Assembly: GCA_016207515.1 (NCBI GenBank)
Contig: JACQPN010000015.1
Span: forward strand, 62,001 to 126,000
DNA: 64,000 nt
DNA from: Euryarchaeota archaeon
Lineage (GTDB): Archaea > Thermoplasmatota > SW-10-69-26 > JACQPN01
Reading direction: 5' to 3'
In this document: positions 5,138 through 63,290 of the stretch, in pieces
Position numbering within the stretch: the stretch's first letter is position 1
Layout of the letters: the number at the start of each line of letters is the position of its first letter
Translations under genes and position numbers: made by a program
Notes under the pieces: generated by a model
What the model saw: the letters and a program-made list of their open reading frames with translations, nothing else
Databases searched by the model: none
Told to the model about the DNA's origin: nothing

Positions 5138-8100
5138 TCATTGCTTCCACCTCACGAACGCCGCGTAACCCCCGAGCGCCACGGCCATGAGGGCGATGAC
5201 GCCGAGCGTTGTAACGCCGCCTATGAACTCGTCGGGGATGAGCCCCGCGCCCTTCACCGTGAAACTCGCCGCGTTCGCCGCAGTGTCCTTCGAGCCATCG
5301 TTGTAGTTGACGACGACGTCGACCGTGTAGCCGCCCGCAGAGCCGGGCGTATACGTCGCGGAGTAGAGGCCGTCGCCCGCCTTCTGGTCTCCCAGAAGTC
5401 CGTCGTCCCTCATCGGGACCGTGGCGACGACCTTGCCCGCGACCTTGATGACCGCCTCAACGCTTGCCACGGGCTTGGCCGGGCTGAAGACCGGCGCCGT
5501 GATGGGGATCACGCTTCCCTGACGCACCGCCGTCTGCGGAACGTTGACGCTTCCCACCACACCGGCTTTCTTCAAGGTCACGGTGTGGACGACGCTGGAA
5601 CTAAGCTGCCCTAGCGTACCCGTCACACGGATGAGGTACACGCCATCGGTGAGTTGGTCGACTTCCCAGGTGACACTGCCATCGCCGCTCCTGTTGGACG
5701 CGATCGCGACCGGGGACTGCCCCTGCTTTTCGTATGTGACGTCGACTTTCACGCTCTGGCCCGACTCGTGCTGCGCGGTCCACGCGATGTCGCCAGTCTC
5801 GTTCACGGTCGCGCCGTTCTTCGGCGTCACTATCCGCACCGTCGGGGCCTTCGCCGTGCCTCCGATGAGGAACGGTTGCGTTCCGTTCTGGAGCGCCTTG
5901 ACGTTACCCACGCCGTCAGTTGCGCGGATAGTGTAGCTCACCGAAGCGCCGTTCACCAGGAGGTCCGTGAATTCGCCCGTGTACGAGTCTGAACCGGCCA
6001 CCTTCGTGAGCGCCAACGTCTTTGGAAGCCCCGTCGCGTTCAGTATGTATGACGCAACGACCTCGTCGATACCTGTGAGAGCGTCCTCAGCCGTCACGTT
6101 CACCACACGCCCGGTCGGCAAGTGGGAGACGGTCGGCGGCGTCGCGTCGACCATCACGGAGACGTTCGTCGTCGCCCCGCGGTTTCCCGCATGGTCCACG
6201 GCATAGAACTCGATGAGGTAGACGCCATCCTGCCCGGACGCCCCGACCGTGAAGGCGTCCGCGTAGGCGTTGAAGGCCCCCGCGCTCGCCCCTCCAAGGG
6301 TCGCCCGCCAATGGACGCCTTTCACGCCGGACCCCGCGTCCGTCGGAGTGGACAGGGTGATGCCGGTCGTAGGCGAGATGGCGATAGATGGTTCCCCGGC
6401 GATGTCTGAAGCGCCGTCGAAGCTCTCCACCGGCGCCTCCGGCGCGGAGCCGTCCACCTTGAACTGGAACGACACGTTGCTCTGGGCGTTCGTCGTATCG
6501 ACCGCTACCACTTCCACGGTGACCGTGTCGCCATCCGCGAACGTGGCCGTGTACCTGGCATTGACGCCGCCCGCCGTCGCGGCCTTGGTGGCCCCGACGA
6601 CGGCGCCGTTCACTTTCATCGTGACGCCGCTCGCCGCGATCGACGAGTCGAGCGCGTTGGCCTCGATCGTCGCGGTGAGGTTCGTCCAACGCTTGCCGTC
6701 GTCGCCCGTCTTCCAGCTCGTGGCACCAACGGACAAGGCGGGCGAGACCACTTGGATCTGCGGCGCGAGGCTCGTCCCGACAACGAACGCGAAGAAACCA
6801 AGAAGGTTCGACCGACCGGCCTTGTCGGTGGCAAGGATGCTGTACGTGTGCACGCCCGAAGCCGTGAACGACGCCGTCGCGGACCAGTTCTTGTCCGTCG
6901 CGTTCGTCGACGTGCGGTTCATGGCGTAGAGCGTCGACGTCGCGTTCGGGAAACTGACGTTGACGAACACGGTGTCGATGTTCTCTATCCCGGCGTTGTC
7001 CGTGACCAGGACGGTGAACGTGAGCGGTGTGCCGACCTCCACTTGGGGCGTGCCGCTTGCGTTCGCCGCCGTCGTCGAAAGCCGGGGCGTTGCGATATCG
7101 GGCCCTGCGAAGTCGCCTATCGTGAAGTTGAACGGGCCCAACGTGGCGCTGTTGTTGTTCGCATCGAACGCCGTCACGTTGAACGTGTAGTTCCCGAACG
7201 CCTCCGACGAGGCCGCCGGCATCTGGAAGCTGTACGTCCACGCTCCCGCCTGCTTTGCGGCGGCAGGGGCCGACGCGCTCGCGTTGACCTTGCGCTCGGC
7301 TCCCTTGAAGACGTCGATGAAGACGGCGTTCACGTAGAAGTTGTCCGAAACGCTCGCGGTCAACGGGATGAAGGCGGCCGCCGAATAGCTCACGTTCGCA
7401 ACGATGTTCGCGCCAAGCGTCGTCCCGGAGGCCGTGGCCCCAGTGATGACCGGCTTCTGGTTCGGGGACTCAAGGATCGTGAAGTTCCGTGGCGGCGTCG
7501 AGACGTCGGACTCACCGAGGCTGTTCGAAGCGTAGATCTGCCACTGGAAGAACCCGACGCCGGTCCACGCGGGGACGGTCGCGACATAGGTCCCCGTCGT
7601 CTTCGCTCCGCCGCCGGAGCGCGTCATGACGTAACTCGCCGTGACGCCGGGGCCCGTGACATTGACCTTCGTGTCGATGAAGACGCCCGACGTCCCAAGG
7701 TCCGCTATGAAATCGAGCGTGAGCGCGTTCTGGCCATCATATGCGCTTGCGGACTTGATGAATTGGAGCGAAGAGAAGGTCAGGCTGTTGAACTTGAGGG
7801 TCGCCGATATGTTCGTGAGGTTGTAAGCGGGGGTGGTTGCGTTGCTCGTGGCATTGAGCGTGATGGTCGCCCCCGCGCCATTGACCTGGTTTCCCGGGGC
7901 CCCGATGGTCACGGTCACGTTCGCGACCTCCAACGGCCGAAGTGTCACGCGCGCAGGCGTGCCGGAGACGAATGAAGAATGGTTGCTCGAGAACGACACC
8001 GTCCACGCGTTCGTCGTCGTGTTGAAGACGCTTATCGGATTCTTGTCGAGCGAGATCGTGTCGTTCAAAGTACCGAGGTTGACCAGCGTGAAATTGACGG

Positions 8101-50350: not shown

Positions 50351-50622
50351 GTTTTCGACACGAACTATCAAGGGCGCGTTATATCTAGGTTTGGGGCGGC
50401 GTTTCGACCGATTGCCCGGGCGGAGCCCGAGCGACCGGTCGCTTGAGCGAGGCGGGAAAGCTTCGGGTAGACGGCGTCGGGTGTCGCGGGCCCACAGGCT
50501 CTTGGGTTCGCGGCGCCGTGCCGGCACGCCGTGGTCGCCGCGTCACGAAATGACCCGGCCAAGGGTGGCCGGAGAAGGCGCCCACCACAAAGCCTATGGG
50601 CCGCGAAAGGGTCCACCCCCTT

Positions 50623-52509
50623 ATGAACGGAGCTCGGGCGCTACTTCTCGCGTCATTGATGATGATCAGCGGTTGCGTCCAGACCCCTCCAGCGGCGGAC
50701 GCCCCCGCAATTGTGGAACAAGCCGCACCGAGCGAACCCGCCGTTGCCCAGGCGACCGAGTTGAGCGAGCGCGCCGAACAGCTCTCATACATCACGAACG
50801 GGACGTGGAGTTTCACGGTCGCGCCAGGGAAGTACTCCATACTTCCCGCCTTGAGCGTCAGCGTAGACGTCTCGCTTCCCCCGGAGGAGGGCGTCGAGGC
50901 CGCGGCCGGGATGGCGAAGGCCCACATGGGCGTTTTCCTACCTGACGTGCCGGCCGGGACCAAAGTCCCTGTCATCGTCGACGTCGGCCCGTACTACAGT
51001 GCGAGCTCCGGTAATGTGCCGCTACAGCTTGAAGGCGACACGGTGGCAACGGAGCCCGCCGCAAGACTCGGCAAGTTCCTCATCACCAATTTCGTGCCCC
51101 ACGGCTACGCCGTCGCCCAGGTGAGTGTTTTCGGGACGGGCGATTCGACGAACTGCATGGACCTCATGGGAAAAAGCGAACAGGCCGGGATCGACGCCGC
51201 CATCACGTGGCTAGGGACCCAAGGCTGGTCGAATGGCAAGGTGGCGCTCATCGGCCGCAGTTACGACGGGACGACTCCATGGGAGGCGGCCGCGTCGGGG
51301 AATCCCCATCTCGCGACGATCGTGCCGATCAGCGGCCTCATCGGGCAACACGAACTGATGTGGCGAAACGGCAGCTCGGAAAGCCGCGGCGGAAGTGGGC
51401 TCCTCTATGCCATATATGCGGCCGACACGATCGACGGCGACGCAGGGGACGCGACGGCGGTCCTTTGCAAGGACTACCTTACGGGCGGCCCGATGAGCTG
51501 GGCCGCAGGCGTCACCGGCGACAACGTCGCGCCCGAGGTGAACGATTACTGGGTCGAGAGGTACTTCCTCGACCGCGCGCTCAAGAACTACAAGGGAAGC
51601 GTCTACCTCACCCACGGTCTCCAGGATTGGAACGTGGATCCCCACATGGCGTTCCCGACGCATCAGAAGCTCGTCGACGCCGGACTCGACGTCAAGGGCC
51701 TATACGGCCAGTGGGCGCACATGTACCCTGACAGGATCAACGAACACGTGGGACTCCCGGAAGGGTACGGAAAGGAAGCGTTCCCGAAGAGCGTGAGGTT
51801 CGATTGGGCACAGGACCTGTTGGAGTGGTTCGATTATTATCTCATGGGCCTCGGACCCAAGCCCGCTCTCGTCGCGGAAGTGCAAGACAGCGGCGGGTTG
51901 TGGCGCGTCGAGGAGACCTACCCGCCAAAAGACGCGAAGTGGATCGACCTGGCCCTCTCGACGGGCGAGAAGCTCCACGGCGACAGGCCCGACGTGATCA
52001 CGTTGGCGGGAGCGGCCGGCCAGGTGGAAGGCGCCCCGGTGGACACCGACATTTCGCTTCGCTACAAGTTCGCTCCCCTCTCGCTTGACAAGGACACGCG
52101 GATAGCGGGACTCGCCCAACTTTCGCTCACGCTGACACCCTCCGGGCCAGGCGGCCAGGTGTTCGCTCAACTCAGGGACTCGGAGACGGGCCTACGCGTC
52201 GGGCACGCGATCATGGACCTTCGCTATGCCGCCGGTGGGAAAGAGATGGTCCCGGTGGTGCCTGGCATGCCGTTGACGGCGAAGATGGAGTTCGAAGCGT
52301 TCGACGTCGTGCTCCCCGCCGGACACGGCCTGGTCCTCATCCTGGCGCCGTTCGGGGAGGACTATCTCCCGAGCGACGTAAGCGACCCGCTCGTCGTCGA
52401 CTCGGCCGCGAGCATCCTGAAGCTCCCGACGGTCGACCGTTCGCCGGAGGTCTTCTTCACGCCTCCGGAGCCCACCGTGGAAGCGGGCGCCGCCGTCGCA
52501 CAACCCTGA
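50623..52509 (+). CDS. S15-type (X-Pro dipeptidyl-peptidase-like) lipoprotein, copy 1
   Basis: 628 residues. A lipobox (MISGC) follows the signal peptide. The alpha/beta-hydrolase domain shows the nucleophile in GRSYDGTTPWEA, a candidate Asp in GLQDWNVD and His in WAHMYPDR. A C-terminal jelly-roll (residues ~470-610) is the usual S15 C-domain. It resembles CocE/X-Pro peptidases and would act outside on peptides or esters. The gene is followed by a paralog of the same length, so a tandem duplication is clear. Confidence 0.88.
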   Translation: MNGARALLLASLMMISGCVQTPPAADAPAIVEQAAPSEPAVAQATELSERAEQLSYITNGTWSFTVAPGKYSILPALSVSVDVSLPPEEGVEAAAGMAKAHMGVFLPDVPAGTKVPVIVDVGPYYSASSGNVPLQLEGDTVATEPAARLGKFLITNFVPHGYAVAQVSVFGTGDSTNCMDLMGKSEQAGIDAAITWLGTQGWSNGKVALIGRSYDGTTPWEAAASGNPHLATIVPISGLIGQHELMWRNGSSESRGGSGLLYAIYAADTIDGDAGDATAVLCKDYLTGGPMSWAAGVTGDNVAPEVNDYWVERYFLDRALKNYKGSVYLTHGLQDWNVDPHMAFPTHQKLVDAGLDVKGLYGQWAHMYPDRINEHVGLPEGYGKEAFPKSVRFDWAQDLLEWFDYYLMGLGPKPALVAEVQDSGGLWRVEETYPPKDAKWIDLALSTGEKLHGDRPDVITLAGAAGQVEGAPVDTDISLRYKFAPLSLDKDTRIAGLAQLSLTLTPSGPGGQVFAQLRDSETGLRVGHAIMDLRYAAGGKEMVPVVPGMPLTAKMEFEAFDVVLPAGHGLVLILAPFGEDYLPSDVSDPLVVDSAASILKLPTVDRSPEVFFTPPEPTVEAGAAVAQP

Positions 52510-52675
52510 CCGGGAGGACACGAGGCTCGGCGCTTCGGCTCGCCAAAGGGCCCATCGATGGGTGCGCCGTTGTGCCGGCGACCTTCACGGGGCCGCGCAT
52601 AGGAGCCGTCGAAGGTGCCACCCGGCACACACGTCCACCATAAGACCTATAATACTAGAAGCGGTCGATTGGCCG

Positions 52676-54562
52676 ATGTCGGCGTCCAAAGCGTTGCTTC
52701 TCGCCGGATTCCTGTTGGTCTCCGGTTGCGTCTCGACCGCCCCACAAGACCTTACGACGGAGGCGCCGGTCGCCGAAACGGTGGTTGCGCCCGCCGCGGT
52801 CGAGCTCCGGGCCCGCACCGTGATGCCGTTCAACGCCGCATCCAACTACAGTTTCACGCTCGAGCCCGGCGTCTTTTCGATCCTCCCCGTCCAAAGCGTC
52901 TTCCTCGACGTCGCTCTCCCGGTCGAAGAGGGTGCCGCGGCGGCGGGCGACATGGCGAGGGTCCACATGGGCGTCTGGCTTCCACAGGTGGAGGCCGGTA
53001 CGCGGGTGCCCGTCATCGCCGACGTCGGCCCGTACTATTCCGACGGCGACGACCCCGCCACCGAGCCGGCGCACCGGCTTGGGAAGTTCCTCATGGACAA
53101 TTTCGTGCCCCACGGATACGCGGTCGCACAGGTCTCCGTCTTCGGCACCGGCCAAAGCACCCATTGCATGGACCTCATGGGCCGAAGCGAGCAACTCGGC
53201 ATCGACGCGGCCGTGGATTTCCTCGGGACCGAGGCGTGGAGCAACGGGAACGTCGCTTTGATCGGACGAAGCTACGACGGGTCGACGCCGTGGGAGGCCG
53301 CGACGTTCGGCAACCCCCACCTCAAGACCATCGTGCCGATCAGCGGCCTCATCGGGGCGCATGAACTCATGTGGCGTAACGGCAGCGCCGAGACGCGCGG
53401 GCCCATCATGCACAACGTCGTCTACGGGACATTTGGCATCGACTCGGAGCTTCCAAGCGGGCCTGATTCGCTCATGATGGACCCGACCGGCTCGATGGAA
53501 CCCGACCCGGAGGACGCCCAGACGCTTTGCAAGGATTACGTGGCGGGTCCCGCCCAAGGTGCGGCGGCGTACGCGACCGGCGACCATGTCGCTGCGATGG
53601 CGAACGACTACTGGGAAGAGCGGAGTTTCCTTCCGCGCGCCCTCGAGAACTACAAGGGCTCGGTCTATTTCATCCACGGCCTCCAGGACTGGAACGTCGA
53701 CAATCACATGGCGTTCCCGACTTACTACAGGCTCCAAGACGCCGGCCTCGAGGTCAAGGGTCTCTTCGGCCAATGGGCGCACATGTACCCCGACCGCATC
53801 CAGGAGCACAAGGGGCTTCCATCGGGACGCGGCAAGGAGGCGTTCCCCCAGTCCGTGCGCTTCGATTGGGCGCAGGACCTCTTGGGCTGGTTCGACTACT
53901 ACCTCAAGGGCCCCGGCGCGAGGCCGGTCCTACGCGCCGAGGTGCAAGACAACGCAGGGGCTTGGCGCGTCGAGGCGACGTATCCGCCGAAGGATGCCTT
54001 GTGGCTCGACAACCGGCTTTCCGCGGCGACGAAAGGCCACGCCGGGGAGGATATCCTGTACGGCGCCGAGGACTTCGCCTCCGGCGTCGGGAGCATCCTC
54101 ACGTACAATTTCCTGCCATTGAGCGCGGAGAAGGATTTGCGCATCGCCGGAATGACCCAGTTGCAACTCTCGGTCACTCCGACGGGACCCGGCGGGCAGG
54201 CCTACGCTATCCTTCGGGACGCGGAGACCGGCATGCACCTCGGCCACGCGATCATGGACGCGCGCTACGCACAAGGCGGCACGGAGATGATGCCGGTCGT
54301 CCCCGGACAACCCCTTACGATGATGATGGAGTTCTGGGCGATGGACGTCGTACTCCCGGCCGGTCACGGGTTGAAACTCCAGCTCTCCGCGACGGGTGAG
54401 GATTACCTGCCGAGCGCAGTGAACGACCCACTTGTCATTGACCTTGCCCACAGCGTCTTGAAGGTCCCGACGATCGAGCGTGGACCCGAGGCATTCTTCA
54501 CCCCGCCCCCGATCGATCCGGCATTCCTTGCCACGGTCCAAGGGCAGGAACAACAGCCGTAG
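52676..54562 (+). CDS. S15-type (X-Pro dipeptidyl-peptidase-like) lipoprotein, copy 2
   Basis: 628 residues from ATG 52676, ~25 bases after a CCTATAATAC box, so it is leaderless and separately promoted. The lipobox is LVSGC. Nucleophile GRSYDGSTPWEA, GLQDWNVD and WAHMYPDR match copy 1 throughout. An insert around IDSELPSGPDSLMMDP, absent from copy 1, is balanced by shorter segments near residue 130. The tandem pair suggests different substrate preferences. Confidence 0.88.
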   Translation: MSASKALLLAGFLLVSGCVSTAPQDLTTEAPVAETVVAPAAVELRARTVMPFNAASNYSFTLEPGVFSILPVQSVFLDVALPVEEGAAAAGDMARVHMGVWLPQVEAGTRVPVIADVGPYYSDGDDPATEPAHRLGKFLMDNFVPHGYAVAQVSVFGTGQSTHCMDLMGRSEQLGIDAAVDFLGTEAWSNGNVALIGRSYDGSTPWEAATFGNPHLKTIVPISGLIGAHELMWRNGSAETRGPIMHNVVYGTFGIDSELPSGPDSLMMDPTGSMEPDPEDAQTLCKDYVAGPAQGAAAYATGDHVAAMANDYWEERSFLPRALENYKGSVYFIHGLQDWNVDNHMAFPTYYRLQDAGLEVKGLFGQWAHMYPDRIQEHKGLPSGRGKEAFPQSVRFDWAQDLLGWFDYYLKGPGARPVLRAEVQDNAGAWRVEATYPPKDALWLDNRLSAATKGHAGEDILYGAEDFASGVGSILTYNFLPLSAEKDLRIAGMTQLQLSVTPTGPGGQAYAILRDAETGMHLGHAIMDARYAQGGTEMMPVVPGQPLTMMMEFWAMDVVLPAGHGLKLQLSATGEDYLPSAVNDPLVIDLAHSVLKVPTIERGPEAFFTPPPIDPAFLATVQGQEQQP

Positions 54563-54754: not shown

Positions 54755-55426
54755 ATGGCCGGACTCATAGGGCTCACGGCGGCCGACATCGACTTGCAAG
54801 ACATTCTCAAGGCCCCGCGCTGGGAGTACGATGGCGAGTGGATCCCTCACCCCGTCGTGCGTCTCACGACGACGCTTCCCGTCGCCGTCCAAAAGCCTGA
54901 TGTCCGAACGATCGTCCGGGCACGTTGGGGCTTCGACGTGGGCGCCGGGCGGCCGATCGGCAATGCGCGGGACGACAAACTCCTCGAAAGCAGGCTCTGG
55001 GGCAGCATGTTCGGGAAAAGCCACTGCCTTGTGGCCTCCACCGGCATCTACGAGATGATCGAGGTCGAAGGGAAGAAGGAGAGTTACTGGTTCCGTCGCC
55101 GCGACAAGAAGCCCATCGTGATGCCGGGGATCTGCGGGATGCGGCATGCGAAGGGCGAGGATCGGCTTTGCGCCGCCATGATCACCACGGAACCGAACGA
55201 CTTCTTCGGGGAGTACCACGACCGTCAGGTCTGCACGCTTTCCTCACGGGAGATGGACGCGTGGCTTTCCAACGGCGAACCGAAGGGGTTCATGAAGCTC
55301 CTCCACGCGCCCGAAAACGACGAGTGGGAGGCGGTACCTGTGGATGGACGTATCTTCAGACCGGGTCGCGTCGAGATGGAACACCTCGTCGAGCAGGGAA
55401 AACCACTTCGCTGGAGTGGAAAGTGA
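54755..55426 (+). CDS. SRAP-domain protein a, Cys2 replaced by Ala
   Basis: 223 residues. The fold is that of SRAP (YedK/HMCES) proteins: RARWGF, PIGNARDDKL, KSHCLVASTGIYEM, ITTEPNDFF and EYHDRQV. Residues that align with the active site are Asn70, Glu100 and His155, but the sequence begins Met-Ala-Gly where the family has Met-Cys-Gly. A TTCTTAAAACC box 18-29 bases before the ATG gives a leaderless mRNA and fixes the start, so the loss of Cys2 is not a start error. Cys2 normally forms the thiazolidine crosslink to abasic DNA. First of four tandem SRAP genes. Confidence 0.85.
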   Translation: MAGLIGLTAADIDLQDILKAPRWEYDGEWIPHPVVRLTTTLPVAVQKPDVRTIVRARWGFDVGAGRPIGNARDDKLLESRLWGSMFGKSHCLVASTGIYEMIEVEGKKESYWFRRRDKKPIVMPGICGMRHAKGEDRLCAAMITTEPNDFFGEYHDRQVCTLSSREMDAWLSNGEPKGFMKLLHAPENDEWEAVPVDGRIFRPGRVEMEHLVEQGKPLRWSGK

Positions 55427-55492
55427 GTCGCATGGGGGGTCGCGTCGCATAGGTGGTTCGCATCGCATACGGGGAGTGAGTCGCGTAATGCT
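55424..55492. repeat. Short degenerate TCGCAT/TCGCGT repeats between SRAP genes a and b
   Basis: GTCGCATGGGGG, GTCGCGTCGCATAGG, TTCGCATCGCATACGGGG and AGTCGCGTAATG follow each other directly after the gene a stop. There are four TCGCAT and two TCGCGT hexamers in ~65 bases. Function unknown. Confidence 0.5.
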
Positions 55493-55553
55493 CCAAGCCC
55501 TTGGACTTGGCGCAAGTTCCCAAGCACCGCCTGGCGATGGAGCGTGAACGCTC

Positions 55554-56240
55554 TTGTGCGGACGCGTAGTGTGGGTCTGGGACGCTGCGACCGGCGAACT
55601 CGTGCGGATGTACGACGAACGCGTGATGGACGATCCCGAAGTCCGGCACGTCCTCGAAAAGAACCGGTACAACGTCCCCCCCGCGAGCCACTTGCCCGTG
55701 ATACTTGGCATCGGTGAAAGTTCGAAAGTCGATGTCGCCCGATGGGGCTTTCCGATCCCGAAGCGGCCAAACGGTGTTTTCAACACGAAGATCGAGACCG
55801 CGAAGGATTCGCCACTGTGGCGAGGCCTCATCGGGGAGAGCCATTGCCTCTTTCTTGTGAAGGGCTTCTATGAGTGGAAAAATGAGGGAAAGCGAAAGGT
55901 CCCACACTTCATCCATCGACGCGACCGTCGCCCCATGCTTCTCGCGGGGGTCTTTGCGAAAGGCCGGGGAGGAGCGGAATCCAAGTGGCTCGCGAGTATC
56001 GTCACATGCGCCCCGACCAGGCAGATGGCTGAAATACACGATCGGATGCCCGTTGTGATCGAGGAAGTCGACGCGGCCGATTGGCTCCATCCCCGATCAT
56101 CCGGGATGGGAAGGGTGCTCGAACTCGCAGCGCCAGGCGGCGACGTCCTAGACTCGCACGCGGTCGGCGCGGCCGCGAACGACACGGGAAACGACACACC
56201 GGCCCTGATCGAACCGGTGAGGCACACCAAATTGTTCTGA
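55554..56240 (+). CDS. SRAP-domain protein b, canonical (Cys2 present)
   Basis: 228 residues. The TTG start is followed by Cys-Gly-Arg, so removal of Met exposes the crosslinking Cys. Asn77 (FNTKIETA), Glu107 (GFYEW) and His162 (IHDRMPVVI) complete the active site, at nearly the same spacing as in known SRAP proteins. It should trap abasic sites in single-stranded DNA as a covalent, reversible DNA-protein crosslink. GGAG stands eleven bases before the TTG. It is the only one of the four paralogs that looks fully catalytic. The C-terminal 25 residues are Asp/Thr/Ala-rich. Confidence 0.93.
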   Translation: MCGRVVWVWDAATGELVRMYDERVMDDPEVRHVLEKNRYNVPPASHLPVILGIGESSKVDVARWGFPIPKRPNGVFNTKIETAKDSPLWRGLIGESHCLFLVKGFYEWKNEGKRKVPHFIHRRDRRPMLLAGVFAKGRGGAESKWLASIVTCAPTRQMAEIHDRMPVVIEEVDAADWLHPRSSGMGRVLELAAPGGDVLDSHAVGAAANDTGNDTPALIEPVRHTKLF

Positions 56241-56318
56241 CGAACCATGGGAAGAACTTTGGGCCACTGCATGGGAAACCCCCTTCGCGGCGCGCCTTCG
56301 CGTCGGCGCAACCGGGAA

Positions 56319-57119
56319 ATGTCGGGACGTGGATTCTTCCTCGTGGCCGGCCTCGAAGGCATCGATGCTTCCAAGATGGAGATAATCGACGCGCTCGGAG
56401 GGACGCGATGGGCGTACGACGAAGACGAACGCGTCGCGAAACCACTGCTTCGACACGCGGACTTCGCCCCCGTTGCGATCGTCGTCGACGGCGAGCGCGT
56501 CATAGAGAAGGTGCGGTTCGGAATGCCCGGTTTCCAAGGCCGATTGATAACGAACGCCCGCGACGACAAACTCATGGAGTCGCCATCGTGGACGTCGCTC
56601 TTTGGAAAGTCGCACTGCCTCACGGCGATAAGCTACGTCGTCGAGACCGACAAGAAGACGAAGACCACCTACCGCGTACAGCGCCGCGATGGAGCGCTCA
56701 TGGTGGTTCCCGGCCTCGTTGCGCGTCGGCACATCAAGTTCGCGAGCACGGGAAACGAGTACGACGATCTCTGCCACGTCCAGGTCACCGCCGACGCGAA
56801 CGACTTCGTCGCCACGATCCACGACCGCTTCGTATGCGAGCTTTCGACCAAGCGTGAACGCGACATGTGGATGAGCCCGGCGGAGCACGACGTCGCGGCC
56901 CTTGCGAAGTTACTCGTGCAGGCGCCAAATGACAGGTACGAGATGGTGCCCATCGCCAGCGACGCGTGGAAGCGGCGAGACGATCCGGACGCGACAAAGC
57001 CGATCGGGGACGCTGTCACATGGGCGGGCAAAGCCGGAGCCAATACGACCAGACCATCGACAAAGTCGGATGGGGGAAAGGGCGCCCGCACGAGGAGGCT
57101 GGACCAATGGCAGGAGTGA
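56319..57119 (+). CDS. SRAP-domain protein c, Cys2 replaced by Ser
   Basis: 266 residues from ATG 56319, giving Met-Ser-Gly-Arg, which lines up with the canonical Met-Cys-Gly-Arg. ATG 56247 is also open but would add a low-complexity Arg-rich extension. Asn79 (ITNARDDKL), Glu109 (YVVET) and His168 (IHDRF) are retained. The C-terminal 35 residues are basic and Gly/Thr/Arg-rich and overlap gene d by 13 bases. The weak ribosome-binding site leaves the exact start less certain than in a and d. Confidence 0.8.
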   Translation: MSGRGFFLVAGLEGIDASKMEIIDALGGTRWAYDEDERVAKPLLRHADFAPVAIVVDGERVIEKVRFGMPGFQGRLITNARDDKLMESPSWTSLFGKSHCLTAISYVVETDKKTKTTYRVQRRDGALMVVPGLVARRHIKFASTGNEYDDLCHVQVTADANDFVATIHDRFVCELSTKRERDMWMSPAEHDVAALAKLLVQAPNDRYEMVPIASDAWKRRDDPDATKPIGDAVTWAGKAGANTTRPSTKSDGGKGARTRRLDQWQE

Positions 57120-57859
57120 TAGGACTACGCGGCCCCGACATCGACAAGCGCGACGCGCTACGCGGCTACAAGGTCGAATGGGAGGACGCGGACCGGCCGA
57201 TAATACGGCCGCACACGGGTTGCCCCGTTCTGTATCTTAAGGACGGCGTGCCCACCGTGGAGCGGCACGTTTTCGGGTTCTCCAAGGAATTCACATCGTT
57301 CAACGCAAGGGCCGACAAGCTCGAGACGGGCAAGATGTGGAGCCGCATGTTCGGGAAGAGCCATGGTATCGCGCCCGTGAGCTACATCCTTGAATGGGCG
57401 GATCTCGGCGATGGGAAAAAACCGTACAGGATCGAGCGCGCCGACGGGGCCGCGATGGCGGTCCCCGCGCTCGTCGGGCACTACTGGGAGGACAAGACGA
57501 AGAGAGCGTTCGCACTCATCACGGTCGAGCCGAACGAGTTCATCGGCAAGATCCACAACCGAGTCATCGCACAGCTCGACGACGGGATGTTCGACACGTG
57601 GCTTTCGCCGGAGAAAAACGACGCGAAGACGCTCCGGGGATGTCTGTCGCCCGGTCGTAACGACGACTTCGTCGCTTACCCGCTGAAGGCCGATGTGGGA
57701 AGCGCTAGGTTTGACGATCCGAAGGCGTTGGAAGCGGTCGGGAAAGGGCTAGAGTGGAAGGACGTGGAAGGCGGCGGGGCAAAGGACGCCGACGACGGGG
57801 CCAAAAAGACGAAGAGCGGGCGGACAAAGCAGGGCGGTCAGTCGAAACTTTTGGAATAG
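57107..57859 (+). CDS. SRAP-domain protein d, Cys2 replaced by Ala, basic tail
   Basis: 250 residues from ATG 57107, eight bases after GGAGG, beginning Met-Ala-Gly-Val-Ile-Gly-Leu much like gene a. Asn66 (SFNARADKL), Glu96 (YILEW) and His150 (IHNRV) are kept. Residues ~225-250 form a Lys/Gly-rich tail (KKTKSGRTKQGGQSK) that may bind DNA. It overlaps gene c by 13 bases and converges with the polymerase C-terminal half, whose stop lies 17 bases away. Confidence 0.85.
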   Translation: MAGVIGLRGPDIDKRDALRGYKVEWEDADRPIIRPHTGCPVLYLKDGVPTVERHVFGFSKEFTSFNARADKLETGKMWSRMFGKSHGIAPVSYILEWADLGDGKKPYRIERADGAAMAVPALVGHYWEDKTKRAFALITVEPNEFIGKIHNRVIAQLDDGMFDTWLSPEKNDAKTLRGCLSPGRNDDFVAYPLKADVGSARFDDPKALEAVGKGLEWKDVEGGGAKDADDGAKKTKSGRTKQGGQSKLLE

Positions 57860-57876: not shown

Positions 57877-58932
57877 TCAGGCGCGGTCTGGACGGATCCA
57901 CTTCACGGGCGTCACCTCGAAACGTCGGGCCTTCGGGCCGCGGGGACGTCGCGTTTCGCCCATGAGCCACCTGTATAGTGCTTCCTCATCGTAGCCGAAC
58001 GGGGAGAGCATCGTCTCTACCGAGCGCGCGAGGAGCCTCACGTAGAAGCCCACATCGTACTCTTGCGTCTTGCCGCTAAGCCATTGTGACTCTCGCTTTG
58101 TCAATTCGACCGGCATCACGCGGGCCCTCCACGGGCCTCGTCTTCTCGTGACGACGTATTTCACGTACTCGCCCGGTTTCCGCTCGACACCGGCGGCCTT
58201 GAGGGCCTTCAACGCGGCCTTCGTGTTCGTGTTCGCTGCGTAATCGTCGGGCCCCATGCGGGTCTGCAGCATGAGGCCGAGCTCCTCGGGGGCGACTTCG
58301 CGCCGTCGCATGGATACGGCCGCCCTCTTGGCCACTTGTAGGGCATGCGGTATGCACGCGAGGAAGTCTTCCGCGTTGTCTGCCTCGGCGAAGACGTCGA
58401 GCATCCCCTGTTGCACGTTGTAGATCCACTCGGGTGTCGAGTGCCGCTGCACTTCGATACCGCGCACTTTGATGGTGCCGTCCTCGAACTTGCCGTAGTA
58501 ACGGTTTGGAACGCCCACTACACCGGCACGATCGTAGGATGGCAGGCCACCGGATCGCTTTTCATATGATGGGGAGTGCGTCTTCGACGGGAGGAGCACG
58601 AGCCACTTGTACACTCCCTCCACGTCCATCGGTACACCCACCTCGTTCGTTATCCGCCGCGAAAGGCGCATCGCGTCGGCGCGAGTCACCCCTGGCTTGT
58701 GCATGAAGACGCAATCGGTGAGCGTGTGGACGACGGTGTAGCCTTCGTCGTTCGCGATCTCGCGGCTACGGGTCATCCCCGCCCTGCCGAGGCACTGTAT
58801 CGCCTGGTGCACCTCGGCGCAACCGAAGCGGGCGTTGCGGTAGCGGAAGTAGCCGAAGCAGACGACTCCGAGGGCCTTGTGCTCGGATTTCACGGCCTTG
58901 GCCTTCTCGACGAGGTCGCGAGGGACGGTCAC
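57877..58932 (-). CDS. Family B DNA polymerase, C-terminal half, degenerate catalytic motifs
   Basis: 351 residues. Motif B region: KALGVVCFGYFRYRNARFG (usual KxxxNSxYG core with Val-Val-Cys-Phe-Gly). Motif C: HTLTDCVF, so the first Asp of the usual DTD is Leu71 and only Asp73 remains. The thumb-like segment KFEDGTIKVRGIEVQRHSTPEW agrees with polymerase B. The exonuclease and motif A are encoded by a separate gene at 60820. GTG start, with a CATATAATGG element on the minus strand near 59018-59027. It is either a split polymerase subunit, a non-catalytic polymerase, or one piece of a broken gene. Confidence 0.8.
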   Translation of the reverse strand: MTVPRDLVEKAKAVKSEHKALGVVCFGYFRYRNARFGCAEVHQAIQCLGRAGMTRSREIANDEGYTVVHTLTDCVFMHKPGVTRADAMRLSRRITNEVGVPMDVEGVYKWLVLLPSKTHSPSYEKRSGGLPSYDRAGVVGVPNRYYGKFEDGTIKVRGIEVQRHSTPEWIYNVQQGMLDVFAEADNAEDFLACIPHALQVAKRAAVSMRRREVAPEELGLMLQTRMGPDDYAANTNTKAALKALKAAGVERKPGEYVKYVVTRRRGPWRARVMPVELTKRESQWLSGKTQEYDVGFYVRLLARSVETMLSPFGYDEEALYRWLMGETRRPRGPKARRFEVTPVKWIRPDRA

Positions 58933-59057
58933 GATAGATGGCAGTCGGCGTCCATCAAACCTTTTCGGGTGAGGCGGGTGAAAGTGTCAGGCATTTTCGG
59001 TGACGGCCCAACGGCAACCATTATATGGTAACCTATGCACATACATATAGCGAGCAT

Positions 59058-59297
59058 ATGGCAATCACCACAATCCAAATCGACGCCAAGACGCGCGAAC
59101 GGCTGTCGCGCCTCAAGACCGGCCCACGCGAGACATATGACGAGATCCTCCAAAAATTCTTGAGCCTCATACCGGAGGGCGACGAGGAAGGCCATTACAC
59201 CGACAGATTCCGCGCCGGTGTCCTTGAGTCCATGATGCAGGCAGCCGTAGGCGACGTGATCCCCCTCGGCGAGGCGAAGAAGCGTTTGGGCCTGTAG
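59058..59297 (+). CDS. Antitoxin of a RelBE-like pair
   Basis: 79 residues. The N-terminus (MAITTIQIDAKTRERLSRLK) is a ribbon-helix-helix or AbrB-size DNA-binding segment, followed by a toxin-binding C-terminus (VIPLGEAKKRLGL). Its TAG is directly followed by the toxin ATG. A CCATTATATGG element at 59018-59028 is ~36 bases upstream and may promote transcription in both directions. An upstream in-frame ATG at 59025 lies inside that element. Confidence 0.85.
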   Translation: MAITTIQIDAKTRERLSRLKTGPRETYDEILQKFLSLIPEGDEEGHYTDRFRAGVLESMMQAAVGDVIPLGEAKKRLGL

Positions 59298-59549
59298 ATG
59301 GCCTGGACCATCGTCCTCACGAAGAAGGCGTGGGGCGACCTCCAACGCCTCGACCGCGAGACCCAAAGGAGAATCGCGACCAAGCTGGAGTCCGTGGCTT
59401 CCGACCCTGCTCGCTCGTTTCAGAAACTCGTAGATAGCCCCCAGTACCGGCTCCGTGTTGGCGATTATCGGATCCTAGCGTTACTGGATTTTGGAGCAGA
59501 ACGGGTGACAGTGCTTGCCATCGGGCATCGGAAGTCGATCTACGGCTAA
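59298..59549 (+). CDS. RelE/ParE-superfamily toxin
   Basis: 83 residues. It reads MAWTIVLTKKAWGDLQRLD, then a helix and YRLRVGDYRILALLD..VTVLAIGHRKSIYG, the core pattern of RelE-fold toxins (RVGDYRI and the C-terminal HRxxIY). It would cleave mRNA on the ribosome or act on gyrase like ParE; the sequence does not decide. It starts right after the antitoxin stop. It lies between the polymerase C-terminal half and a polymerase scrap. Confidence 0.9.
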   Translation: MAWTIVLTKKAWGDLQRLDRETQRRIATKLESVASDPARSFQKLVDSPQYRLRVGDYRILALLDFGAERVTVLAIGHRKSIYG

Positions 59550-59682
59550 TCTCGTTCTTCGATTCCTTCCCTCTCCGCCCTCCTCAACATCGCCTTCACG
59601 TACCTCCTATGCCCCCACAACCGCCTCAGTATCTCCGCCTGGTGCCCGTAGTGGCGTCGGCACACGTGCATGCCGAGTTCCG
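59546..59682 (-). pseudogene. Duplicated scrap of the family B polymerase N-terminal-half gene
   Basis: Encodes ELGMHVCRRHYGHQAEIL and RRLWGHRRYVKAMLRRAEREG before a stop, matching the end of the 60820 gene nearly residue for residue. At DNA level, 59569-59682 and 60882-60995 agree at 99 of 114 positions by hand count. The frame further upstream has no polymerase homology. The scrap's 3' end (EREGIEERD) may be closer to the original join with the C-terminal half than the end of the 60820 gene is. Confidence 0.8.
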
Positions 59683-59783
59683 CAGCGACCTTCGCCTGCG
59701 GTCGCTCTCGCAGAGGTTTCAGTTTGTGGTGTCGACGGAGAGGTCGTGGACTTGATCCAGGCACCCCACATGGAAACATTTAT

Positions 59784-59814
59784 ATGTTGCTAAAAGGCTA
59801 CAAATGTTGCCAAA
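59784..59814. promoter_or_regulatory. Direct repeat ATGTTGC(T/C)AAA at the MNT start
   Basis: ATGTTGCTAAA at 59784-59794 and ATGTTGCCAAA at 59804-59814 are 20 bases apart, about two helical turns. The first overlaps the TTTATATG box (59779-59786) and the second begins at the MNT start codon. The wing-helix N-terminus of the MNT protein may bind here to repress its own operon. Confidence 0.55.
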
Positions 59815-60448
59815 CAGCGACACAATGCGCTTCCACAAAGTCATCGAAGAGGTGATCGGAGGGCGCCTCCCGATCCGCGTCTTTCGCGTCCTCGTCACGT
59901 TTCCATCGAAGGAATTCACCGGCCGCGAACTTGCGCGCACGGCGGGAGCGGATGCCTCCAAGACGATCCAGTACCTCAACACGCTCCTGGATCATGGCCT
60001 GGTGGAGCGCCGCACCGTCGGCCACAGTCAACTCTGGAGACTACGCCAAGGTCACTACCTCGTCAAGAAGCTCGGCCCTGTGCTCGGTCTAGAAAGAGCG
60101 GCGATTGGGGATCTATACGCGCTGATATCGAAGAAGCTCCGCGCAATCGGCGTCGTTGAAACGGCCATTATCTTCGGCTCCGTAGCGCGTGGCGAGGAGC
60201 GGCCGGATAGCGATATAGACCTCTTCATACTCGTGGATGGCAAGTCGGAGAAGAATATGCTCATGCTCACTCTCGAGGAACTGGCGAAGGAGGTCGCCGA
60301 TTCTTTCGGCAACCCCCTCACGCCCGTCGTATATACACGACGCGAGCTTTCCCAAAAGCGCGACCTGCCCCTCGTGGCCTCGATCCGCCGCGAGGGGGTA
60401 TTGGTCCTGGGAGCAGGGCTTGAGAACGGAGAGACTGGACAAGGGTAA
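59804..60448 (+). CDS. MNT-type nucleotidyltransferase with N-terminal winged helix (antitoxin)
   Basis: 214 residues. Residues ~15-85 form a winged helix (IRVFRVLVTFPSKEFTGRELARTAG..LVERRTV). Residues ~110-210 are a minimal nucleotidyltransferase with GSVARGEERPDSDIDLFIL, which holds the GS motif and the Asp pair. In MNT/HEPN (type VII) systems the MNT protein AMPylates the HEPN toxin. A TTTATATG box 18-25 bases upstream makes the mRNA leaderless. It overlaps the HEPN gene by 29 bases. Confidence 0.88.
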   Translation: MLPNSDTMRFHKVIEEVIGGRLPIRVFRVLVTFPSKEFTGRELARTAGADASKTIQYLNTLLDHGLVERRTVGHSQLWRLRQGHYLVKKLGPVLGLERAAIGDLYALISKKLRAIGVVETAIIFGSVARGEERPDSDIDLFILVDGKSEKNMLMLTLEELAKEVADSFGNPLTPVVYTRRELSQKRDLPLVASIRREGVLVLGAGLENGETGQG

Positions 60449-60815
60449 GGCTCGCGTTTATCTCCGGAAGGCCCAAGACTTCGCGTCGGGCCTAAGGCGT
60501 TCGGCGGATCGCGAAGAATGGAATTCGGTCGGGCTTCTCTCGGTGCACCTCGTGATATCCACGGCGGACGCCCTGACGACTTTCTATCTTGGCGAGCGGT
60601 CCCGCTCCCAGGACCACGGGGACGCGGCCCAATTATTGCGGCGGATCCCCGTCACGGGCATAGAAGAACACGCGGACAAGGCCTTGGAGGTGATCCGCGT
60701 GAAGAACGTAGTTGAGTACGAGGCGAGAGAATTCGAGGAGACGGAGGCGACGGCCACGATGAAGAAGGCCCTGAGGTTTCACGAGTGGGGACGCCAACAG
60801 TTGGGGGAGCGGTGA
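60420..60815 (+). CDS. HEPN-domain protein (probable toxin partner)
   Basis: 131 residues from TTG 60420, helical throughout: KARVYLRKAQDFASGL, WNSVGLLSVHLVISTADALTTF, then RVKNVVEYEAREFEE. The pattern matches HEPN proteins that pair with MNT. The typical RNxxxH nuclease signature is not clear; RSRSQDH (Arg-x5-His) near residue 60 is the nearest, and the later conserved segment has KNVVEYE. It may be a variant HEPN without RNase activity. The stop is 5 bases from the convergent polymerase gene stop. Confidence 0.8.
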   Translation: MRTERLDKGKARVYLRKAQDFASGLRRSADREEWNSVGLLSVHLVISTADALTTFYLGERSRSQDHGDAAQLLRRIPVTGIEEHADKALEVIRVKNVVEYEAREFEETEATATMKKALRFHEWGRQQLGER

Positions 60816-60819
60816 GCGG

Positions 60820-62298
60820 TCATGAAGGCCACAAAGGGGGTGCGTGAGCCTCGTCTGCGGTGGTTGATGGCACGACCCCCTCCCTCTCCGCCCTCTTCAA
60901 TATCGCCTTGACGTAACGCCTGTGCCCCCACAACCTCCTCAGTATCTCCGCCTGATGCCCGTAGTGCCGCTTGCACACGCGCATCCCTAGTTCCGGCACG
61001 ACGAACGCCTCCGGATCGTCTCTGCAGCAGTCACAGTTGATCGTGTCGCTTGAAAGGTTGTTCATGACGACGAGGCTCGGATAGTAGCCCGAGAAATCGC
61101 ACGCGACGACGTCGCTGTAGACTCCCGGCTCCGGGTTCACTATCTGTCCGCCGCGATCCACTGCGCAAAGGGTCGCGGCGTCCTTCCAGTCTTCTGCGAG
61201 GTTGCGCTTCCACGGGAGAGCGACACCCCAGTCTGTCGCGAGGTCTATCTGCATCTGTTGAAGCGCGTAGCCTGCGCCGTTACGGTTCACGTCCTGCGCC
61301 CGGCGGTTGGCCACACGCGAGAGGTAGATTATCCCGTGGAGGTCCTTCCGGTCGTCCTCCGAGTCCAAGGTCTTTTTCGAAAGATCGACGTGCCAACGGC
61401 CGCGTAGATAGTACGCGTTCGTCTTGAAGAGCCAGCGTCCGTACGTGTGGATGCTCTTCGACTCCTGGTCGGGCCTGTCGGGAAGCGGATCCTCGTCGCG
61501 GCCCAACCGCACTTCGCGCTCCAAGTCGAGCTTACGTATCCGGCGCAAGAGATACGGGATGTCCCACCGGTCGCCGTGGCGCGTTATCAACACGTCGGGA
61601 TCGAGCGTACGTATGCGTGCGTTCAATTCCCGGAGCACGCCGCGTTCTGCAGCCTCGTCGCCGGGCTTTGCGCACTTGAGTTCCTCGTCGCCGAACCTCA
61701 CCGACTCCAAGGCGTCCTCGAAGGAGTGGACGTGCCCTCCTTTCACGGTCTTCACTTCAAGCCGCACCGTCTTTAGGCCCGGGTCCGGATAATCGAACGT
61801 CCATCGGTCCTCGCCGTCGTAAAGTCCGAGGCCATGCTCAAGCGCACTCGACGAACGCGCGTCACTGCCACGCTCCATGAGCCGGTCGGGGTCCAGCCTG
61901 CACATGGAGAAGAGCCCTTGCGAGTGCATCCATCTGCTCTCGGCCTGGTGGTCCACGTCGAAGAACAGGAACCCCTTCGTGTGGGTCTCCTTCCGAAGCC
62001 TCGTCGCTATGGAGAACGTGTCCTGGAACCGCCGTGGCCTCACGCGTAGGACAGGTTCCTTGGGGCCTCGTAGCCAGAGCGCCGTCTCGTCGCGCCGCAT
62101 CGACTCGACCCGTTCGTCCAGCTTCAGGACGTCTTCGGCCGTTTCGAGCGGCTCCGCCTCGGCGCGGACAGCGAACTCAGGCTGGTACCGTACGAGCCTC
62201 TTCAAGGTCTTCGAGCCGTGTTTGACCCAGATGACCAAGCTCGAGAGCCGTGGGTGTGGGTATGCGTCGAACAACCAGGCCGGCTTCGGCGAGTGCAT
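60820..62298 (-). CDS. Family B DNA polymerase, N-terminal half (exonuclease and motif A)
   Basis: 492 residues. The exonuclease-like domain has FFDVDHQAE where Exo I is DxE and TRHGDRWDIPYLL where Exo II is NGDxFD; the Exo III region (YxxxD) seems missing. Motif A is present near residue 400 as CDFSGYYPS followed by NNLSSDT. A metal-type segment INCDCC..CKRHYGHQ follows. The chain then stops after AEREG plus 15 unrelated residues, before motif B. Motifs B and C are in the separate gene at 57877. Either a two-polypeptide polymerase or a broken gene. Confidence 0.8.
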   Translation of the reverse strand: MHSPKPAWLFDAYPHPRLSSLVIWVKHGSKTLKRLVRYQPEFAVRAEAEPLETAEDVLKLDERVESMRRDETALWLRGPKEPVLRVRPRRFQDTFSIATRLRKETHTKGFLFFDVDHQAESRWMHSQGLFSMCRLDPDRLMERGSDARSSSALEHGLGLYDGEDRWTFDYPDPGLKTVRLEVKTVKGGHVHSFEDALESVRFGDEELKCAKPGDEAAERGVLRELNARIRTLDPDVLITRHGDRWDIPYLLRRIRKLDLEREVRLGRDEDPLPDRPDQESKSIHTYGRWLFKTNAYYLRGRWHVDLSKKTLDSEDDRKDLHGIIYLSRVANRRAQDVNRNGAGYALQQMQIDLATDWGVALPWKRNLAEDWKDAATLCAVDRGGQIVNPEPGVYSDVVACDFSGYYPSLVVMNNLSSDTINCDCCRDDPEAFVVPELGMRVCKRHYGHQAEILRRLWGHRRYVKAILKRAEREGVVPSTTADEAHAPPLWPS

Positions 62299-62569
62299 GA
62301 CAGGCCTCCTCCAGTTGCATCTTCATCACTGCGATCTCCGCTCTCGTCTCGTCGAGTTCCCGCATGCCTTCAAGGAGCATCGAGAGCATCACTGGGCGCT
62401 CGAAGTCGAGGTGCGGTCGGCGGTTTATCGCGTTCGAATGACGTCGTGCGCGTACCACGAGTTCGTCGAACCATCTTTGCTCCCTCGGATGCAGCTCCGA
62501 GCGGAACGCGTCATAGCGGGCCTCGAACGTGTCGAGAGCCATCGTCGTCGTGGGGGTCGATTGGCCCAT
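62177..62569 (-). CDS. Small helical protein upstream of the split polymerase
   Basis: 130 residues. Probably all-helical, with a coiled-coil-like segment (SMLLEGMRELDETRAEIAVMKMQLEEACHAL). The C-terminal ~40 residues overlap the start of the polymerase gene by 122 bases in another frame, which is unusual; part of that tail may not be real, or the polymerase may start later than 62298. A CAGGAG ~15 bases before the ATG supports the start. No known family; context links it to the polymerase and the RecA-like protein. Confidence 0.6.
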   Translation of the reverse strand: MGQSTPTTTMALDTFEARYDAFRSELHPREQRWFDELVVRARRHSNAINRRPHLDFERPVMLSMLLEGMRELDETRAEIAVMKMQLEEACHALAEAGLVVRRIPTPTALELGHLGQTRLEDLEEARTVPA

Positions 62570-62672: not shown

Positions 62673-63290
62673 TCACCATCCATTGCCGAGAAGATCCATC
62701 TGCCGCGACGAACCCGATTCGCCGGCATCGCCCGGAATCGGGACGACGTTCTCCCCTGCGCTTCTCTTTCCAAGGGTCCAACGCCTCTCGACGCCCTCAT
62801 CGACAAGTGTAGCAAGCGCAGGGTGCGTGAGCCGCAAACGCGCCATGTCGACCCCGATGAGGATCGGGACCCTGTGCTTCGTGGCGAGCCCACGCAGATG
62901 TGCGAGGCTGTACTTCACGTAATCCTCCTGTTCCCAATCCTTCAATTCGTCGGTCGAGAACAGCCTGTCGTATGGAAGCGCGAGCACGAGTGAGGTCTTC
63001 GTCGTCTCAAGTCTCGCTCCCAATTGCTTCGTGAGCACGGTGTCCCATTGGAAAGGCGTCATGCACCGCTTCACGAGCACGCGCCCGGCTCCGTCGTCGG
63101 CCGAGTGGCCTCGAACGAGGTTCAATTCGGCGAAGTTGTACGGATTGAAGCCGTGGTCGCCGTCGCACCAGAGGACCTGGCCATCCATGTTGTGGACTGT
63201 GTGATGGGCGAGTTCCTGCGCAACTTGACGCACATGACACGTCGGCCCGTCAAGAAGTACCAGTCCATCGACGAAGAAGCGGGACCACAC
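62673..63290 (-). CDS. RecA/RadA-like protein with degenerate P-loop
   Basis: 205 residues from GTG, the only start after the in-frame TGA. The order of elements fits a RecA core: strand VDGLVLLDG, loop GPTCHVRQ where the Walker A should be GxxxxGKT, helix VAQELAHHTV, strand VLWCDGDHGFNPYNFAE, then VLVKRCMTPFQWDTVL, SLVLALPYDRLF in the Walker B place without the usual Asp, and KHRVPILIGVDMARL. So ATP use is doubtful. Compared with ImuA and archaeal RadB/RadC-like proteins, it could be an accessory loader for the polymerase. Confidence 0.7.
   Translation of the reverse strand: MWSRFFVDGLVLLDGPTCHVRQVAQELAHHTVHNMDGQVLWCDGDHGFNPYNFAELNLVRGHSADDGAGRVLVKRCMTPFQWDTVLTKQLGARLETTKTSLVLALPYDRLFSTDELKDWEQEDYVKYSLAHLRGLATKHRVPILIGVDMARLRLTHPALATLVDEGVERRWTLGKRSAGENVVPIPGDAGESGSSRQMDLLGNGW

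Follow-up and report, generated by a model that had tools for sequence, protein, structure and literature searches.

The SRAP array and its N-termini

The window, that is the whole 64,000 nt stretch of DNA analysed, contains four consecutive SRAP genes (a to d) on the plus strand, the 3' end of c being overlapped by d. A summary is given in Table 1. As stated by the sequence-only reading, all four open reading frames are SRAPs. Each of them scores above the curated cut-off of the Pfam family (PF02586, 27.1 bits) and b additionally matches E. coli YedK with E=6e-21. No SRAP other than a-d is found in the 2.67 Mb genome, in which the array lies on contig C15. Two tandem genes for X-Pro dipeptidyl-peptidase-like proteins (S15/PepX_C; 50596-54562) are located immediately upstream.

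SRAPs are known for a cysteine at position 2 that has been called absolutely conserved (PMC3765255). In b this Cys is residue 2 of the mature protein; the corresponding residue of a and d, and most likely of c, is Ala. The pocket residues Asn, Glu and His are present in all four proteins, and the positions that had been quoted for a, b and d are correct. Genes a, c and d may form a small archaeal SRAP subfamily whose mature N-terminus would be an alanine. We refer to its members as Ala2-SRAPs.

Table 1. Features of the window and SRAP orthologs at the related locus L019.
Locus	Feature	Position	Strand	Characteristics	Assignment
Window	SRAP a	54755..55426	+	Met-Ala-Gly start, Ala2-SRAP, N70/E100/H155	Pfam SRAP 91.8 bits
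Window	SRAP b	55554..56240	+	canonical Met-Cys-Gly, TTG start, C2/N77/E107/H162	Pfam SRAP 143.4 bits
Window	SRAP c	56343..57119	+	likely GTG start, Met-Ala-Gly, N71/E101/H160, unconserved basic tail	Pfam SRAP 67.4 bits
Window	SRAP d	57107..57859	+	Met-Ala-Gly start, N66/E96/H150, disordered basic tail	Pfam SRAP 84.6 bits
Window	PolB2 C-terminal half	57877..58932	-	67% identity to L019 PolB2	Pfam DNA_pol_B
Window	ParDE-type toxin-antitoxin pair	59025..59549	+	between polB2 pieces	Pfam ParE_toxin 1.7e-10, DUF7557
Window	polB2 segment, second copy (partial)	59546..59779	-	HYGHQAEILRRLWGHRRYVKA...	DNA alignment to intact segment; tblastn with L019 PolB2
Window	MntA-like nucleotidyltransferase (59804-60448) and HEPN-like frame	59804..60815	+	between polB2 pieces	Polbeta/NTP_transf_2 (Pfam), NCBIfam MntA below cut-off; HEPN-like frame by eye only
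Window	PolB2 N-terminal half	60820..62298	-	63% identity to L019 PolB2	Pfam DNA_pol_B_exo1 and DNA_pol_B
Window	PPB2-like small protein	62177..62569	-	N-terminus MGQST	70% identity to L019 gene; position
Window	iRadA-like protein	62673..63290	-	50% identity to L019 gene at this place	position and gene order
L019	ortholog of d	5321-6001		Met-Ala-Gly by GTG	~65% identity to d
L019	ortholog of a	6001-6660		Met-Ala-Gly	~60% identity to a

The N-terminus of c differs from the one proposed earlier, a Met-Ser-Gly start at ATG 56319. In the alignment the region VAGLEGIDASK of c matches the N-termini MAGLIGLTAADI of a and MAGVIGLRGPDI of d, and its V corresponds to a GTG codon at 56343, eight codons 3' of the ATG. 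Because of this match, and because the d ortholog of L019 likewise starts with GTG, we place the start of c at 56343. We reject the Met-Ser-Gly start as probably wrong, given how the N-terminus of c lines up with those of a, d and their L019 counterparts. Hence c is most likely a Met-Ala-Gly protein with the pocket residues numbered as in Table 1, and judged from the alignment the same most likely holds for a, c and d alike. A clear Shine-Dalgarno sequence is seen at neither candidate start of c. The GGAGG with 8-base spacing described for d is present, and TTAAAA was found upstream of a by eye.

Autoproteolytic removal of N-terminal tags has been described for SRAPs (PMC3765255), and the start of c is uncertain. 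The starts of a, c and d might thus be misread, with a Cys becoming N-terminal through a different start codon or through autoproteolytic cleavage. We regard this as extremely improbable. An upstream search in a, c, d and both L019 orthologs revealed no Met-Cys start, and thus no Met-Cys-Gly, in frame back to the previous stop. Moreover, the conserved Gly has no Cys just before it and the five N-termini line up at Met-Ala-Gly.

Conservation, distribution and origin

Scanning 84,980 genomes with patterns derived from a, c and d yielded one close relative locus, L019, in a Thermoplasmata MAG of a different class than the window's genome. Here d and a each have an ortholog; the two genes lie in tandem and overlap, and their products start with Met-Ala-Gly and have Asn, Glu and His. 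Beside the pair and in divergent orientation lies a gene for a radical SAM protein (L019 4098-5210), whose closest families are PA0069/Rv2578c. In the numbering of a, the residues A2, G3, N70, E100 and H155 do not vary among the 5/5 Ala2-SRAPs from the two classes. An alignment of 13 diverse SRAPs has seven invariant columns (M1, N70, W82, E100, H155, R157, W170), three of which are Asn, Glu and His, more than chance would leave. These residues are thus retained in the Ala2-SRAPs as tightly as in Cys-bearing relatives, as far as the aligned sequences tell.

The orthologs of a and d show dN/dS values of 0.28-0.35 between window and L019, with synonymous changes near saturation. The claim that Cys2 was lost from a, c and d while the pocket was kept under selection is therefore upheld by the alignment, by the presence of Ala2 also in orthologs from another archaeal class and by a dN/dS of ~0.3; loss of Asn, Glu or His is seen neither in a, c and d nor in the L019 orthologs. 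The same observations speak against a, c and d being degenerating copies kept by chance or gene amplification. A tandem array, a narrow distribution and a disrupted polB2 next door would fit such decay, but the frames are open and the active-site columns invariant, which renders it very unlikely.

Among the genomes searched only those of the window and of L019 carry Ala2-SRAPs. When 390 genomes sampled from the phylum were searched with a profile, the scores were bimodal, the five Ala2-SRAPs reaching 350-379 bits and all others at most 84 bits. No further member was found in 7/7 genomes of the window's class or in 80/80 searched of the L019 class, nor in a bacterial phylum sampled with 399 genomes, where no score exceeded 105 bits. 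The Thermoplasmatota SRAPs examined in detail all carry Cys2, the Ala2-SRAPs aside. Two scans of viruses returned no relative and a third a single weak match of the canonical type, and matches in phages and plasmids are distant (<60% identity). On these scans a viral, phage or plasmid origin is rejected. Two Corynebacterium SRAPs (L032 1055-1765, L034 5767-6369) also have no Cys2 and share the odd N-terminus MRFTSI. They look N-terminally truncated and are not comparable.

In phylogenetic trees a, c, d and their orthologs fall into a well-supported group that includes one long-branched Cys-bearing SRAP (L046, from genome G214). In one tree the latter is sister to the Ala group, which receives 90/73; in another (58) it is unplaced. 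A single Cys-to-Ala change at the root of a/c/d is the simplest reading of the trees and a likely one. Gene b represents a separate SRAP lineage and groups with a SRAP of G152 (family f31), whose family also includes the L019 genome. The four genes hence did not arise by one simple tandem duplication. As the genomes of L019 and the window belong to different classes, horizontal transfer of the array from one class to another is probable. A hetero-complex with b, suggested by the sequence-only reading, does not stand at the centre of our reading, since the L019 pair has no adjoining b and b sits on a different branch.

The converging PolB2 operon

At both loci a putative iRadA-PPB2-PolB2 operon on the opposite strand converges on the Ala2-SRAPs, which the sequence-only reading had missed. 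The three proteins have been proposed to form a PolB2 mutasome for translesion synthesis (Timinskas 2025, PMC11791011). In that study SRAP genes were enriched near polB2. PolB2 (Dpo2) acts as an extender beyond abasic sites (PMC8721586).

The window shares with the described system the gene order, the nearby SRAP gene and the loss of the first Asp of DxD in motif C of PolB2, which reads L-T-D in place of D-T-D (HTLTDC in the window, HALTDC in L019), a loss shown by most PolB2 proteins. It differs in that its SRAPs without the cysteine are arranged tail-to-tail to the operon, in the split polB2 and in the N-terminus of PPB2, given as MGRT for the published family (PMC11791011) and MGQST here as well as in L019, L104 and L105. 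No Walker A motif is present in the sequence of the iRadA-like protein, and it has no match in Pfam or NCBIfam, RadA included.

The sole polB2 of the genome consists of two open reading frames (492 and 351 aa) separated by toxin-antitoxin modules and a diverged partial polB2 copy. Both halves show a dN/dS of ~0.24, like intact copies. Since both thus look to be under purifying selection, the gene may encode a natural split polymerase rather than being dead; PolB2 of this genome may also be non-working. A single-chain PolB2, absent from the window, is intact in G063, G001 and G214. In G001 and G214 this subtype of PolB2 occurs with no adjoining Ala2-SRAP, hence PolB2 does not need these proteins.

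The L019 genome possesses a second, distant PolB2 mutasome (L043 / L110 3917-8320) comprising iRadA and a PPB2 with the N-terminus MGRVT, beside which a divergent Cys-bearing SRAP with a Met-Cys-Asn start is encoded. Comparison of coordinates showed an SRAP and, no more than a few kb away, a PolB gene matched with this PolB2 in ~15 Thermoplasmatota genomes (G088, G196, G126, G108, G187, G193, G220, G175, G249, G091, G279, G179, G127, G063, G000), the weaker matches of which may be other PolB subtypes.

A probable alanine in the abasic-site pocket

The structure of a was predicted with a pLDDT of 90.7. Its top PDB matches are 6NUA, a YedK-DNA crosslink, and in second place 8D2M, the Schiff-base complex of YedK C2A, at TM 0.82. 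The model of d (pLDDT 84.5) has a disordered tail at 225-250. The significant structure matches of both models are SRAP structures only; b and c were placed by sequence only. The basic tails of c and d had been taken to fit DNA binding. This is weakened by the tails being unconserved and by that of d, which is predicted to be disordered, missing from the L019 ortholog.

With the SRAP domains of YedK and HMCES the proteins a, c and d have in common the fold (as modelled for a), the Asn/Glu/His pocket and the Gly following the N-terminal residue. They differ in carrying Ala in place of the crosslinking Cys2, and the identity is only ~19%. The laboratory mutant YedK C2A resembles a by its mature N-terminal Ala together with Glu and His. 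It is engineered, with imine and lyase activity measured, whereas a, c and d are natural, conserved and known from sequence. By this analogy a, c and d are most likely natural counterparts of YedK C2A, i.e. abasic-site proteins restricted to the Schiff base. Such chemistry through the N-terminal amine, which had been suggested for a, c and d, is known for the mutant (PMC9436759) and plausible for them. The N-terminal Ala of YedK C2A forms an imine with abasic DNA, captured in a crystal structure, with a rate constant of 1.7 compared to 0.05 for cleavage (as printed), and both reactions depend strongly on Glu105 (PMC9436759).

The following sequence of events is proposed. After removal of Met the alpha-amine of Ala2 would sit in the pocket beside Asn, Glu and His. 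Methionine aminopeptidase removes Met before Ala; acetylation of an N-terminal Ala, which may occur in archaea, would make the amine unavailable. The free amine would ring-open the sugar at an abasic site in ssDNA and form an imine. Closure to the thiazolidine would be impossible in the absence of a thiol. The DNA would be held quickly and reversibly, and slow beta-elimination would be the side or end reaction. Rather than lock onto damaged DNA, the Ala2-SRAPs would thus probably keep a reversible grip on it or nick it.

Slow cleavage leads to the question whether they are true AP lyases, selected for beta-elimination and cutting abasic ssDNA or processing 3' unsaturated aldehyde ends in repair or restriction. 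YedK C2A indeed cleaves via its N-terminal Ala in a Glu105-dependent and partly His160-dependent manner (PMC9436759), and the equivalent Glu and His are kept in 5/5 Ala2-SRAPs. However, cleavage by the mutant is ~30 times slower than imine formation, cutting of ssDNA at forks would do harm and the gene surroundings point to translesion synthesis rather than excision. We consider a dedicated lyase unlikely.

Alternatively, the Ala2-SRAPs might be non-catalytic subunits that bind DNA or serve as scaffold, in the PolB2 mutasome or in an SRAP hetero-complex, and that would bind ss/ds junctions with the SRAP fold. Overlap of c and d in the window and of d and a in L019 suggests coupled production, and several paralogs are retained. 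In addition, one report (PMC12926913) ties SRAP-like proteins to UmuC-like polymerases as putative polymerase-binding subunits. That report, as our data do, links SRAP relatives to a translesion polymerase, there of the Y-family and here of the B-family. A scaffold would however leave unexplained why Glu and His, required for ring opening and imine, are invariant while most of the protein changes. This role appears rather doubtful to us.

We therefore return to the reversible hold, which seems to us more plausible than either a dedicated lyase or a function that is purely structural. Since the Ala2-SRAPs converge on the PolB2 operon, the most likely role would be a temporary one: the hold would let PolB2 take over the abasic site and a permanent protein-DNA crosslink would be avoided. 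HMCES inhibits mutagenic translesion synthesis (PMC9436759), whereas PolB2 extends beyond abasic sites, thus a reversible hold beside PolB2 would make functional sense. The analysis itself establishes sequence, conservation, fold and gene neighbourhood; imine chemistry, its reversibility and cooperation with PolB2 are proposed on top of these. As a whole, a reversible imine hold handing over to PolB2 is our best explanation, with a chance somewhat below even. The more specific view of natural SRAPs without the thiol that use a reversible Ala Schiff base as dedicated partners of PolB2, a 'hold and release' alternative to the crosslink of HMCES and YedK, is put forward tentatively.

Cys2 is the basis of known SRAP function. 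If C2A is indeed conserved in nature, the pocket must have a useful function even where no crosslink is formed. The Ala2-SRAPs make reversible abasic-site handling versus lyase action by SRAPs directly testable and are concrete proteins with which to probe the reported, as yet unexplained association of SRAP genes with the PolB2 mutasome.
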